DNA from: Amycolatopsis albispora
GTDB taxonomy: Bacteria > Actinomycetota > Actinomycetes > Mycobacteriales > Pseudonocardiaceae
Assembly (NCBI RefSeq): GCF_003312875.1
Contig: NZ_CP015163.1
Location: forward strand, 8,308,001-8,372,000
Direction of reading: 5' to 3'
Length of the DNA: 64,000 nt
Shown: positions 40,001 to 61,000 of the stretch, piece after piece
Numbering within the stretch: the stretch's first letter is position 1
How the letters are laid out: every line of letters begins with the position of its first letter
The notes under the pieces: model-generated
Databases searched by the model: none
Seen by the model: the letters and a program-made list of their open reading frames with translations, nothing else
Told to the model about the DNA's origin: nothing
Translations under genes and position numbers: made by a program

Positions 40001-43000
40001 GGGCGCGGTCCAGCTCCAGTTGCGCGTCGGGCTGCCCGACGACCAGGGGCGGCGCGCGATCGTGGTGCACAGCCGCCCGGAGGACGCGGTCGATCTGCCG
40101 TGGACCGAGCACGCCAGCGGGTTCCTGGGCACCGGTACCCGTCCGTCCACTTTCGACAGCGTGACCTGGCCGCCGTCCGGCGCCGAGCCGATCGGCGTGG
40201 ACGGCTGCTACCAGCGCTTCGCCGACGACGGTTTTGCCTACGGCCCGGTGTTCCAAGGGCTGCGGGCGGCCTGGCAGCACGGTGACGAGGTCTTTGCCGA
40301 GGTCGCTCTGCCCGAAGGGGTTTCGCCGGACGGATTCGGCCTGCACCCGGCGTTGCTGGACGCCGCCCTGCACGCCGCCGGACTGGCGGAGCTGGGCGTG
40401 TTGAGCGGGGGTGCGCTGCCGTTCTCGTGGGAAGGCGTTTCCCTGCACGCGGTCGGCGCGGCCACCGCGCGGGTTCGCCTGCGTGCCGAGGGCAGCGGGC
40501 TTTCGGTCGAGGTCGCGGACGCGGCCGGGGGACCGGTCGCCTCGATCGACTCGCTGGTGCTCCGCGAGGTGGCGGCCGACCAGGTCGGCGACCCCGCCCG
40601 CGACGGCCTGTTCCGCGTCGACTGGGTGCCCGCGCCCGCCGCTGCGGCCGAGCCGGTGTTCGCCGTGCACGAGACGTTGGAGTCCATTGAGGACGTTCCG
40701 GAGGTGGTGGTGCTGCCGCTGCCGGAGACCGGCTCGGTGCGTGAGCTCACCGCGCACGCCCTCGACCTGCTGCAACGCTGGCTGGCCGACGACCGGTTCG
40801 CCGACTCGCGGCTGGTGCTGGTCACCCGGGGCGACACGCCCGCGACCGCGGCCGTGTGGGGGCTGGTCCGCTCGGCGCAGTCGGAGAACCCGGGCCGGTT
40901 TGTCCTGGTGGAGGCCGAGGATCTGGCCCTGGTCCCGGCGGCCGTCGCCACCGGCGAGCCCCAGCTCGCCATTCGCGGCGGTGAGATCCTGGTGCCGCGC
41001 CTCGCGCGGGTGCCCGCGCCTGCCGAGCGGTTCACCTGGAATCCCGACGAACTGGTGTTGATCACCGGCGGCACCGGTGGTCTGGGCGGGGTCCTCGCCC
41101 GGCACCTGGTGCGCGAGCACGGTGTGCGGAACCTGCTGCTGGTCAGCCGCAGTGGTGCCGCCGACGTGTCGGACATCGACGCGAACGTGCAGGTCGCAGC
41201 TTGTGATGTGGCCGACCGTGACGCGCTCTCGGCGTTGCTGGCGCGGTACGACGTCAAGGCCGTGGTCCACGCGGCGGGTGTGCTCGACGACGGTGTGATC
41301 GGCTCGCTGACCCCGGAGCGGCTGGACAGCGTGCTCCGGCCGAAGCTCGACGCGGCCCGCAACCTGCACGAACTCACCGGCGACCTGTCGGCGTTCGTGG
41401 TCTATTCGGCTGGTGCCGGGGTGTTCGGCGGTGCTGGTCAGGGCAACTACGCGGCCGCGAACGCCGCGCTCGACGCGCTGATCCGGGAGCGCCACGCCGC
41501 CGGGCTGCCCGGGGTTTCGCTGGTGTGGGGCGCGTGGGACCGGACGATCGGCCTCACCGGCAGCGTCACCGACGCCGACCTGCGGCGACTGGCCCAGGAC
41601 GGGATGCCGCCGCTGTCGGCGGAGCAGGGCGTCGCGTTGTTCGACGCCGCGCTGGCCACCGGTGAGCCGGTGATCCTGCCGATGAACGTGGACCTGGCGG
41701 CGCTGCGTGGTCGCGACGACGTCCCGCCCCTGCTGCGTGGCCTGGTGCGCACCCGCGCCCGGCGCGCGGCGGCCGGTGAGGAAACCGCGGGCACGCTGGC
41801 GCGGCGGCTCGCCGGGCAGAGCGACGCCGAGCGCGTGGAGTCGCTGGTGGAGGCGATCCGCGGGCTGGTCGCCGTGGTGCTCGGGTACGCGGGCCCGGCG
41901 GCGGTCGACCCGGCGCGGACCTTCCAGCACCTCGGGTTCGACTCGCTGACCGCGGTCGAACTGCGCAACCGCCTGAGCGCGGCGACCGGGCTGCGCCTGC
42001 CCGCGACCATGGTCTTCGACTACCCGACGCCGGCCGTGCTGGCTGCGTACCTGCGGGACGAGCTGTTCGGGCGCAATGAAAGCCACATTCTTAGCGCTGG
42101 ACGCAATGAAAGCCACATTCATAGCGCCGACGACCCGATCGTGATCGTGGGGATGTCCTGCCGCTTCCCCGGTGGCGTGAACTCGCCGGAGGAACTGTGG
42201 GACCTGGTGCTCAACGGCACCGACGCGATCACCGGCTTCCCGGCTGACCGCGGCTGGGACCTCGACGCGCTCTACCACCCGGACCCCGACCACCCGGGCA
42301 CGTCGTACGCGCGCACCGGCGGTTTCCTGCACAACGCGGCCGACTTCGATCCGGACTTCTTCGGGATGAGCCCGCGGGAAGCGCTGGCCACCGACTCGCA
42401 GCAGCGCCTGCTCCTGGAGACCTCGTGGGAGGCGCTCGAGCGCGCCGGTATCGACCCGGTTTCCTTGCGGGGCAGTCAAACCGGCGTGTTCGCCGGGGTG
42501 ATGTACAACGACTACGGCTCCCTGATCGAGGACGACGAGGGGTACCAGGGCACGGGCGCGCAGCTGAGCGTCGCTTCCGGACGCCTGTCGTACACCTTCG
42601 GCTTCGAAGGCCCGGCGGTCACCGTGGACACCGCGTGCTCGTCTTCGCTGGTCGCACTGCACCTGGCGGCGCAGGCGCTGCGGTCGGGTGAATGCTCGCT
42701 GGCGCTGGCCGGTGGTGTGACGGTGATGTCCACCCCGAGCACGTATGTGACGTTTTCGCGGCAGCGGGGTCTGTCGGAAGACGGCCGGTGCAAGGCGTTC
42801 GCCGACGCGGCCGATGGTGCCGGGTTCTCCGAGGGCGTCGGCCTCCTGGTGCTGGAGCGGCTTTCGGATGCGCAGCGTAACGGGCATCAGGTGCTGGCGG
42901 TGGTGCGTGGCAGTGCGGTGAACCAGGATGGTGCTTCGAATGGGTTGACTGCGCCGAATGGTCCTTCGCAGCAGCGGGTGATCCGGCAGGCGCTGGCTTC

Positions 43001-58000: not shown

Positions 58001-61000
58001 GATGGCGCTGGAGTTGCTGGATTCGTCGCCGGTGTTCGCGGAGTGGATGGCCGAGTGCGACCGGGTGGTCGGCGAGTTGGTCGGCTGGTCGGTGCTTGAG
58101 AAGTTGCGTGAGGGCAGCGGTGCGCTGGAGCGCATTGAGGTGTTGCAGCCGTTGTTGTTCGCGGTGATGGTGTCGTTGGCGCAGTTGTGGCGTTCGGTGG
58201 GTGTGGAGCCTGCTGCGGTGGTGGGTTCGTCGCAGGGTGAGATTCCGGCGGCGTACATCGCGGGTGCGTTGAGTCTGGAGGACGCGGCGAAGATTGTGGT
58301 GTTGCGCAGCCAGTTGTTCGCCGATGAGTTGGTGGGCAATGGCGCGGTGGCCTCGATCGCGTTGTCCGAGGAACAGGCACGGGCACGCCTGAACGGTGAG
58401 CTGACCATCGCCGGGGTGAACGGGCCGCAGGCCGTCACCGTGGCCGGACCGCTGGAGCCGTTGAACGAGTTTGTGGCGGCTTGTGTGGCGGAGGACATCC
58501 GGGCGCGGGTGGTTCCGTCCACTGTGGCTTCGCATTGCGCTCAGGTGGATCCGCTGCGGGACGCGATCCTGGAAATGTTCGCCGAGATCAAGCCGTTGGA
58601 GGCGCGGATCCCGTTCTATTCGACGGTGACCGGTGGTCTGGTGGACGGCAGTGAGCTGGGGCCGGAGTACTGGTTCCACAACGCCCGCCAGCCGGTCAAC
58701 TTCGCGGGTGCGGTCAAGACCATGCTCGACGACGGCTTCCGCGTGTTCGTCGAGCCGAGCGCGCACCCGGTGCTGACCATGGCCGCGCAGCAGACGGCCG
58801 AATCGCTGGACGTGCCGACCGTTGCGGTGGGCTCGCTCCGGCGGGACGAGGGCGGGCCCGCTCGGTTCATGACCTCGCTCGCCGAGGCCTACGTCGCCGG
58901 GGTTTCCGTGGACTGGCGGATCTTCTTCGCCGGTACGCGAGCGCGGCGAGTCGATCTGCCGACGTACGCCTTCCAGCACAAGCAGTTCTGGCCGGAGCCG
59001 CTGACCCCGGCATCCACCGTGGACCCGGTGGACGCGGAGTTCTGGGAGTTGGTCGAAGAAGGCGACTTCGCGGCCGAACTGGACCTGGACACCGACACCG
59101 CGGCACGCGTCGTTCCCGCGCTGGCCGGGTGGCGCAGCCGCCGCCGCGCGAAGTCCACAGTGGATTCCTGGCGGTACGCCGAGTCGTGGTCACCGATCAA
59201 GCCGTCCGGGGCGCTGTCCGGGACCTGGCTGGTGGTGGTGCCCGAGGGCGGCGAGCCGATCGATCTCGGCACGGAGACCGTCACGCTGGAGGTCGGTGAC
59301 GTCGGCCGCGACGAGCTGGCCGAGACGTTGCGTGAGATCGACGGCGAGTTCACCGGGGTGCTGTCCCTGCTGGCCACCGCCGACGCGCCGCGGACGGGTG
59401 CCGTTCCCGCCGGGCTGGCGCGCTCGCTGTTCCTCATCCAGGCGCTGGGCGACGCCGGGATCGACGCTCCACTGTGGAACGTCACGCGCGGTGCGGTCGC
59501 GGTGGCGGATGCCGCCGAGGTCACCGAACCCGACCAGGCCGCGCTCTGGGGCCTCGGCCGGGCCGTCGCGCTCGAAGAACCACAGCGCTGGGGTGGTCTG
59601 GTCGATGTGCCCGAAGGCAGGGACGACCGGCTGCCCGCGGTGCTGTCCGGGGCCGAGGACCAGGTGGCGATCCGCGCCGACGGCGTGTACGGGCGCCGCC
59701 TGGTGCACGCGGCCCCGGCCGAGCCGGTACGGGACTGGCAGCCGAGCGGCACGGTCCTGATCACCGGCGGGACCGGCGGCCTCGGCGGGTACGTGGCGCG
59801 CTGGGCGGTCGAGACCGGCGCCGAGCACGTCCTGCTCACCAGCCGCCGCGGCCTCGACGCGCCGGGCGCGCCGGAGCTGCGCGACGAACTCGAAGGCATG
59901 GGCGCCCGCGTCACCGTGGCCGCCTGCGACGCCGCCGACCGGGACGCGCTGGCCGCGCTGCTGGCGGAACACCCGGTGACCGCCGTGGTGCACACGGCCG
60001 GGGTCGGGGTCGGTGACGCGCCCGCCGAGTCGCTGACGATCGAGCAGCTGGACGCGCTGCTGCGGTCGAAGCTCGCGGCCGCGTGGAACCTGCACGAACT
60101 CACCGGCGACCTCGACGCGTTTGTGCTGTTCTCCTCGGGCGCGGCGATGTGGGGCAGTGGCGGCCAGCCGGGTTACGCGGCGGGCAACACCTTCCTCAAC
60201 GCGCTCGCCCAGTACCGCCGGGCACGCGGCCTCACCGCGACCTCGATCGCCTGGGGCGCCTGGGCCGAGGCGGGCATGGCCACCCATGAGGACATGGCCG
60301 ACCACCTGGTGCGCCGCGGCCTGCTCTCGATGGAGCCGGGCCTGGCGATCAGCGCGATGCAGCGGGCCATCGAAGAGGACCGCACGCTGATCACCGTCAC
60401 GAACACCGACTGGGAACGGTTCGCGCCGAGCTTCACCAGCCGCCGCCCGAGCCGTCTGCTCTCGGAACTCCCGGAGGCACGCCAGGCGCTCGCCGACGAC
60501 GCACCGGAAGAGGAGTCGGCGCTCAAGCAGCGGCTCGCCGGGCTGGGCGAGGCGGAACGGTCGCGGGTGCTGCTCGACCTGGTCCGCACCGAGGCCGCCG
60601 CCACGCTCGGCTTCGACGCGGCCGAGGACCTGCCCGCCGGCAAGGCCTTCCGCGAGGTCGGCTTCGACTCGGTGACCGCGGTCCAGTTGCGCAACCAGCT
60701 CAAGGCCGCGACCGGGCTCGCGCTGCCCGCGGCGCTGGTGTTCGACTACCCGACCCCGAAGGCGCTGACCGAGCACCTGCTGGCCGAGCTGTTCGGCCGC
60801 AATGAAAGCCACATTCATAGCGCCACGCGCAATGAAAGCCACATTCATAGCGCCGACGACCCCGTCGTGATCGTGGGCATGGCGTGTCGCTATCCGGGTG
60901 GGGTGACCACGCCGGAGGAGCTGTGGGAGCTGGTCGACAGCGGCACCGACGCCATCGCCGGCTTCCCGGCGGACCGCGGCTGGGCGCTCGACGCGATCAA

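Follow-up and report, generated by a model that had tools for sequence, protein, structure and literature searches.

The DNA analysed here (hereafter the window) comprises 64,000 nucleotides of Amycolatopsis albispora, positions 8308001-8372000 of a chromosome of 9,121,443 bp assembled as one contig. It carries most of a giant modular polyketide synthase (PKS) gene, in which a short palindromic repeat, also dispersed between genes elsewhere in the genome, forms several of the linkers that join an acyl carrier protein (ACP) domain to the next ketosynthase (KS) domain. A. albispora is designated G000 and its three sister species G074, G066 and G004. Positions are those of the window, and negative values lie upstream of its first nucleotide. 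The features of the PKS gene are as follows.

37071..64000, + strand: PKS gene with four pairs of repeat units; the open reading frame continues to 69917, beyond the window end
42072..42126, + strand: module 1 linker, two direct units with a 5-bp spacer, coding, between ACP and KS
46746..46803, + strand: module 2 linker, two direct units with an 8-bp spacer; native in the three sisters
51483..51540, + strand: module 3 linker, two direct units with an 8-bp spacer
~56394..56444, + strand: module 4 linker, native in G000; with the element in G074 and G004
60798..60852, + strand: module 5 linker, two direct units with a 5-bp spacer

Linker elements of the PKS

All four tandem pairs are in frame within the single open reading frame 37071-69917, and each is preceded by an ACP (Pfam PF00550) and followed by a KS (PF00109). 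A sequence-only reading of this DNA had placed them so, with spacers of 5 or 8 bp between direct units, and both points are confirmed. The element replaces the native linker (about 15-20 amino acids) and does not lengthen it. The same reading had described the eight coding units as identical over 25 bases to positions 26172-26196 of an intergenic hairpin, which holds for five; the remaining three, each the first of its pair (42072, 46746 and 51483), differ by one base (..CTTAGCG). This variant base is common to linkers 1, 2 and 3, and the 8-bp spacers of linkers 2 and 3 agree at 7/8 bases. Three codons of the element are rare in the PKS (AAT, ATT and CAT represent 0.12, 0.10 and 0.10 of their sets, respectively), and at the domain borders they could possibly cause a translation pause.

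Outside the window, three more element linkers were found, whose KS domains start near -13549, 65253 and 74912. The one at 65253 is a fifth element linker of the same PKS gene, just beyond the window (65193), with one altered core base in its second unit, and the linker at 74912 has an inverted first unit with one change (CNESGFPS). The element was present in 7/18 internal ACP-KS linkers recognised by a motif, which missed the KS domains in 46-12912, a stretch that contains no core of the repeat. Repeats commonly cause misassembly, and the pairs could in principle be an assembly artefact; however, homologous linkers are present in three other assemblies and the acyltransferase insert described below occurs in a separate public record, and the chance of such an artefact is considered practically negligible.

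Genomic family of the repeat

The 13-bp core of the unit, GAAAGCCACATTC, has 16 matches in the window, all of them exact with two mismatches allowed (0.51 expected; none of 100 shuffles reached 16). Eight lie in the PKS and eight in four intergenic hairpins, where the sequence-only reading had recognised a single one.

18112..18166, no strand: intergenic hairpin of family B, two inverted units, between convergent genes
18223..18277, no strand: intergenic hairpin of family A, in the same convergent gap as 18112..18166
26043..26097, no strand: intergenic hairpin of family A, between convergent genes
26142..26196, no strand: intergenic hairpin of family C, whose right arm is the PKS linker unit

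The whole chromosome has 765 cores, the reversed control none, and the patterns CGAAAGCCACATTCG and TGAAAGCCACNTTCA have 646 and 110 matches, respectively. Exact inverted pairs number 278 on the chromosome and direct-pair matches 50, some of the latter spanning two adjacent elements. The G000 sequence that was read amounts to 1.622 of 9.12 Mb (about 18% of the genome) and contains 78 clusters with 148 exact units, arranged as '-+' in 56 clusters, '++' in 10, '--' in one, single units in 10 and '-+++' in one. The possibility that core orientation is polarised along the chromosome was considered and rejected, the strand counts being 396 and 369 with most copies in inverted pairs.

The unit is a 25-bp imperfect dyad centred on the nearly invariant core, and a typical intergenic copy consists of two inverted units and measures about 55 bp. 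Three stem families, A, B and C, have different stems and ends around the common core. Within units, the frequency of complementarity is 0.74-0.98 for the pairs 2-24, 3-23, 4-22 and 6-20, and 0.23 and 0.19 for the pairs 1-25 and 5-21; pairs 7-9 are fixed by the method of unit selection; the constancy of the core was therefore re-measured by searches with 55-bp consensus sequences. In family A (42 elements), none of 553 unflipped centre sites is changed, against 2.8% per site in the stems. In family B (17 elements), all 6 changes fall in a single unit of an outlier element, the 33 other units being unchanged, and in family C (11 elements) 4/22 centres are flipped and 2/126 sites changed. A search of the G000 sequence for any hairpin with 24-bp arms found the exact core in 63/87.

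A core that is far more constant than its stems, and intact even where flipped (5/84 family-A centres), would be expected of a DNA-binding site with a role in nucleoid structure, recombination or expression, the PKS copies being kept for that role. However, no such factor is known, the core is missing or altered in several orthologous linkers, and many copies occur in the four-species clade alone. This explanation is accordingly regarded as doubtful.

Several further observations concern the hairpins of the genome. In some elements (L026:17235-17289, L028:1151-1205 and others), the inner 7 bp (TGTGGCT/AGCCACA) are inverted in one arm with the stems still paired. Two tandem arrays of seven exact units (L301:5548-6122 and L302:5975-6281 in G000) each occupy a single intergenic gap among metabolic genes. 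A second hairpin family has the form CGGCGA...TTGTCAAGG, an 8-base loop with GGGAAGAG or similar, and ...CCTTGACAA...TCGCCG; its middle bases vary and complementarity between the arms is kept. Its sites are L028:1361, L053:885, L058:8134, L059:8811, L091:9233, L092:4024, L095:15675 and L110:4398, and L139:19698 in G004.

Intergenic and coding copies

Genes were called with a home-made script in 60 sampled stretches and the window, which together hold 59 elements. The comparison of intergenic with coding copies that the sequence-only reading had offered as a check gives 53 elements between genes (one overlapping predicted gene ends by 7 bp) and 6 within genes, all of the latter in PKS. With 765 dispersed cores and 10 coding elements identified so far, all in PKS, its central claim that a palindromic repeat became coding in PKS linkers is upheld. 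At 11 further direct-pair loci of G000, no reading frame had coding signal in both flanks.

The flanking genes are convergent for 32/51 elements with both neighbours known, as against 187/1060 adjacent gene pairs (P 1e-12), and the most likely form of the intergenic element is a hairpin located where convergent transcripts end. Two of the linker pairs are predicted to fold weakly (-9.9 and -15.9 kcal/mol), compared with -40.6 kcal/mol for the family-C intergenic hairpin. Searches of 108 kb from four sources against Rfam 15 gave no match to the element above the gathering score. The only matches in these searches were to the Rfam family ASpks, on the strand opposite KS regions; in the window they lie on the minus strand, opposite PKS coding sequence, at ten places (4288, 8608, 13976, 33396, 38097, 43074, 47751, 52494, 57390 and 61782), probably because that family was defined on KS-coding DNA.

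Distribution in other genomes

In a set of 80 genomes of the genus that includes G000, the exact core is abundant in four (765, 317, 286 and 35 copies), the other 76 having 0 to 5, and the wider pattern TGAAAGCCACNTTCA occurs in 22. The core in CG context was found in 3 of 200 family genomes, a draw that did not contain the three sister species, namely G000 and two others with single copies. Each of the three repeat-bearing relatives possesses a collinear 11-module PKS, and the three rank nearest to G000 over the first 800 bp of a gyrase-region query (91-93%). Neither a NESHI linker nor the core was present in the best 80 of 440 PKS loci of other genomes, a scan that may leave out records near G000, and an element at a linker was seen in none of the 120 homologous proteins listed out of 417. 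In the more distant congeners G015 (L281), G006 (L282) and G031, a few variant copies with the core TGAAAGCCACTTTCA were observed, some at the same 30-bp spacing; those of G015 L281 and G006 L282 are non-coding.

Linkers compared across four species

The occupancy of orthologous linkers in G000 and its three sisters is as follows.

Modules 1, 3, 5, 6 and 7: element or at least one unit in 4/4 species, with single-unit remnants in G066 (modules 1 and 3) and G004 (module 5)
Module 2: element in G000 only
Module 4: element in G074 and G004, not in G000
Module 9: element in G074 and G066
Modules 8, 10 and 11: element in 0/4 species
Cluster-1 linker at -13549: element in G000 and G074
Cluster-1 linker at -17758: element in G066, not in G000 (two species compared)

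In the module 4 linker of G004 (L251), about 17 extra residues (PPVTHHHPQRSSAQSLS) were observed between the two units.

The sequence-only reading had supposed that the element entered one linker and was copied with module duplications. Linkers within a species are indeed more alike than orthologous linkers, as whole-module duplication would have it, but linkers 1, 2, 5, 6 and 7 have flanks that on both sides are most similar to the corresponding module in a sister species, and the three sisters have module 2 with a native linker. That part of the reading is not sustained, and multiplication by whole-module duplication is judged very improbable. Since the flanks mostly group by orthology, gain of the element by short tracts is indicated instead, and the module 2 linker was thus gained in such a tract.

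Independent insertion at hot spots in the linkers of each species, without an element in the ancestral linkers, would agree with the species-specific stems of the linkers described below and with the species-specific occupancy of linkers 2, 4 and 9. Five linkers are, however, occupied in 4/4 species at closely similar positions, and this alternative is considered rather unlikely.

Evolution of the coding copies

When the core codons of the linkers were compared with those of their orthologues, 14 nonsynonymous and no synonymous changes were found in 108 codons (19.8 synonymous expected, Poisson P 2.5e-9), a comparison which required GAA first, leaves strongly changed units undetected and has non-independent cells. 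The KS flanks gave 209 synonymous and 65 nonsynonymous changes in 1140 codons in the same comparison. Without the GAA requirement, 50 rows (including at least one chance match and one remnant) again showed no synonymous change in the four core codons. For single-base neighbours alone, the lack of synonymous change is weakly unexpected (P 0.06), because few single-base changes in the core codons are synonymous.

Outside the core, G000 has A-T as the second stem pair, and the three sisters have G-C. The form GTGAAAGCCACNTTCAC makes up 0/110 of the TGAA-type sites in G000 and 285/287, 151/153 and 27/31 of those in the sisters, linkers included, and the linker stems agree with the stem type of their own genome. 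From these patterns, the linkers and the genomic pool appear to change together, by homogenisation or fresh insertion, the stem contrast being one between G000 and the three sisters. The species-specific stems and the lack of synonymous core change suggest coding DNA that changes in step with a dispersed repeat.

The orientation of units differs between the two settings, direct pairs being found in 6/7 linkers and in 6/59 two-unit elements outside the PKS (Fisher P 6.5e-5, for linkers that are interrelated). The plus direction encodes ESHIH and the other ECGFH, and the sole inverted linker unit has AGT in place of the intergenic TGT (Cys). Orientation in the linkers is therefore likely to have been filtered by the encoded peptide. 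It might be supposed further that the NESHI/RESHI peptide is itself a functional linker kept by protein-level selection, with which the predominance of direct pairs and the ESHIH direction of all linker units but one would be in accord. Yet the changes in the core codons, all of them nonsynonymous in both comparisons, are the reverse of protein constraint, and linkers come and go between the species; a selected peptide is considered quite improbable.

Elements in acyltransferase domains

Three acyltransferase domains, at -34598, -11876 and -1041, contain in frame a whole inverted family-A hairpin, encoding SVTNVAFETPDVSKATFVTS. These inserts are inverted and read in another frame than the linkers, and their hairpin is intact (-44.0 kcal/mol). 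In three alignments to solved acyltransferases, the insert falls at a point where the chains are shorter. Its inner 49 bp recur exactly at four other places of G000, all non-coding, and are absent from the 79 other genus genomes; 0/9 sister sites carry the insert. Acyltransferases 1 and 3 of G000 have an identical stretch upstream of the insert, which the sister sites lack. A public protein of Amycolatopsis lurida (P0121, 1749 amino acids) has the same insert, the one match among 98 candidates; its N-terminus agrees with that of the window gene 12932-18106 at 53/54 residues compared, and that gene has its own acyltransferase without the insert.

Origin and spread of the element

Taken together, the evidence makes it probable that the PKS linker elements are coding members of a palindromic family that is lineage-specific, apparently non-autonomous and similar to repetitive extragenic palindromes (REP) or miniature inverted-repeat transposable elements (MITE), and that they spread among linkers by short-tract exchange. 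The element would have entered PKS linkers before the split of the four species and would then have moved between some linkers, and been lost from others, by gene conversion within the repetitive PKS locus, a route that we infer from the sequence comparisons. Homogenisation or fresh insertion would have kept the linker copies in step with the genomic pool, and a later acyltransferase insertion may have spread likewise by short-tract exchange. In the protein, the element would be mainly a tolerated polar linker.

A number of points weigh against this explanation. The link to the genomic pool is unexplained by it, because 25-55 bp is short for gene conversion with distant copies. For the module 3 linker, grouping by orthology holds for the KS flank alone, and the ACP flank is most similar to module 4 in the same gene. 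Y1 transposase (PF01797) was found in none of seven genomes, and the seven proteins beside the arrays L301 and L302 include no mobile gene, six belonging to metabolic families and one having no family. Comparison of about 340 kb with two relatives for empty sites gave intergenic copies without readable target duplication, the flanking gaps being divergent between genomes, and the 5 additional bp at the acyltransferase insert site do not form a direct repeat. None of the five terminator-like sites in 17900-26500, where T-tailed terminators were sought, coincides with a window hairpin. The family is, moreover, described from about 18% of G000, with genes called by a home-made script. Mobilisation of a REP by a REP-associated tyrosine transposase (RAYT) was considered separately and found unsupported, PF01797 occurring in 0/7 genomes as against 5/14 control genomes.

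The exchange of short tracts among linkers nonetheless remains our preferred explanation. A speculative and rather doubtful reading is that an active process keeps writing the current version of the hairpin into the PKS linkers, which would then consist of a mobile repeat and be renewed from it; such uniform connectors could serve as natural standard junctions for the exchange of modules or domains. The interest of the system lies in the four-species linker series and in the DNA-level evolution of the coding copies. Presence and absence at orthologous linkers amount to natural linker swaps on one scaffold, the products of which lend themselves to comparison, and the suggested concerted change between coding copies and repeat makes its mechanism open to test.

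Comparison with known systems

Among the literature matches listed, none described this repeat or the use of repeats as PKS linkers, and the repeat sequence used as a query gave only a match on another subject. Enterobacterial REP and bacterial interspersed mosaic elements (BIME) are short intergenic palindromes present in hundreds near the 3' ends of genes, often in inverted pairs. The present family is likewise made up of abundant intergenic palindromes in inverted pairs, but differs in the absence of Y1/RAYT from the seven genomes, in a nearly invariant 13-bp core with several stem families and in its coding members. It differs from intrinsic terminators in that none of the four window hairpins is followed by a T run. 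Homologous PKS modules are known to exchange short stretches, and in the present case a linker consisting of a genomic repeat would be the stretch exchanged. The best-known coding palindromic repeats are those of Rickettsia. The element described here belongs to an actinomycete and lies in a modular PKS, a type of enzyme whose linkers pose a central problem for engineering.

MITEs and the intragenic enterobacterial repeat units are described as small non-autonomous repeats able to add in-frame peptides (PMC10969869, PMC2759123), and in these respects the element is similar. The conserved terminal inverted repeats and target-site duplication of a MITE were sought: the ends differ among families A, B and C, no target duplication is readable, and the conserved part lies inside each arm. 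The Rickettsia palindromic elements (RPE), as described in a review, measure about 150 bp and lie in frame in unrelated protein genes as well as outside genes (PMC10969869). Compared with that account, the present element is shorter (about 55 bp), replaces a native linker and varies in presence between orthologous linkers; in the part of the genome read, 6/59 elements are in genes, all of them PKS, in place of the many unrelated genes of RPE. Both are palindromic repeats that lie in frame within protein genes, are read through and occur also outside genes, and by this description the element appears in kind to be most like RPE.

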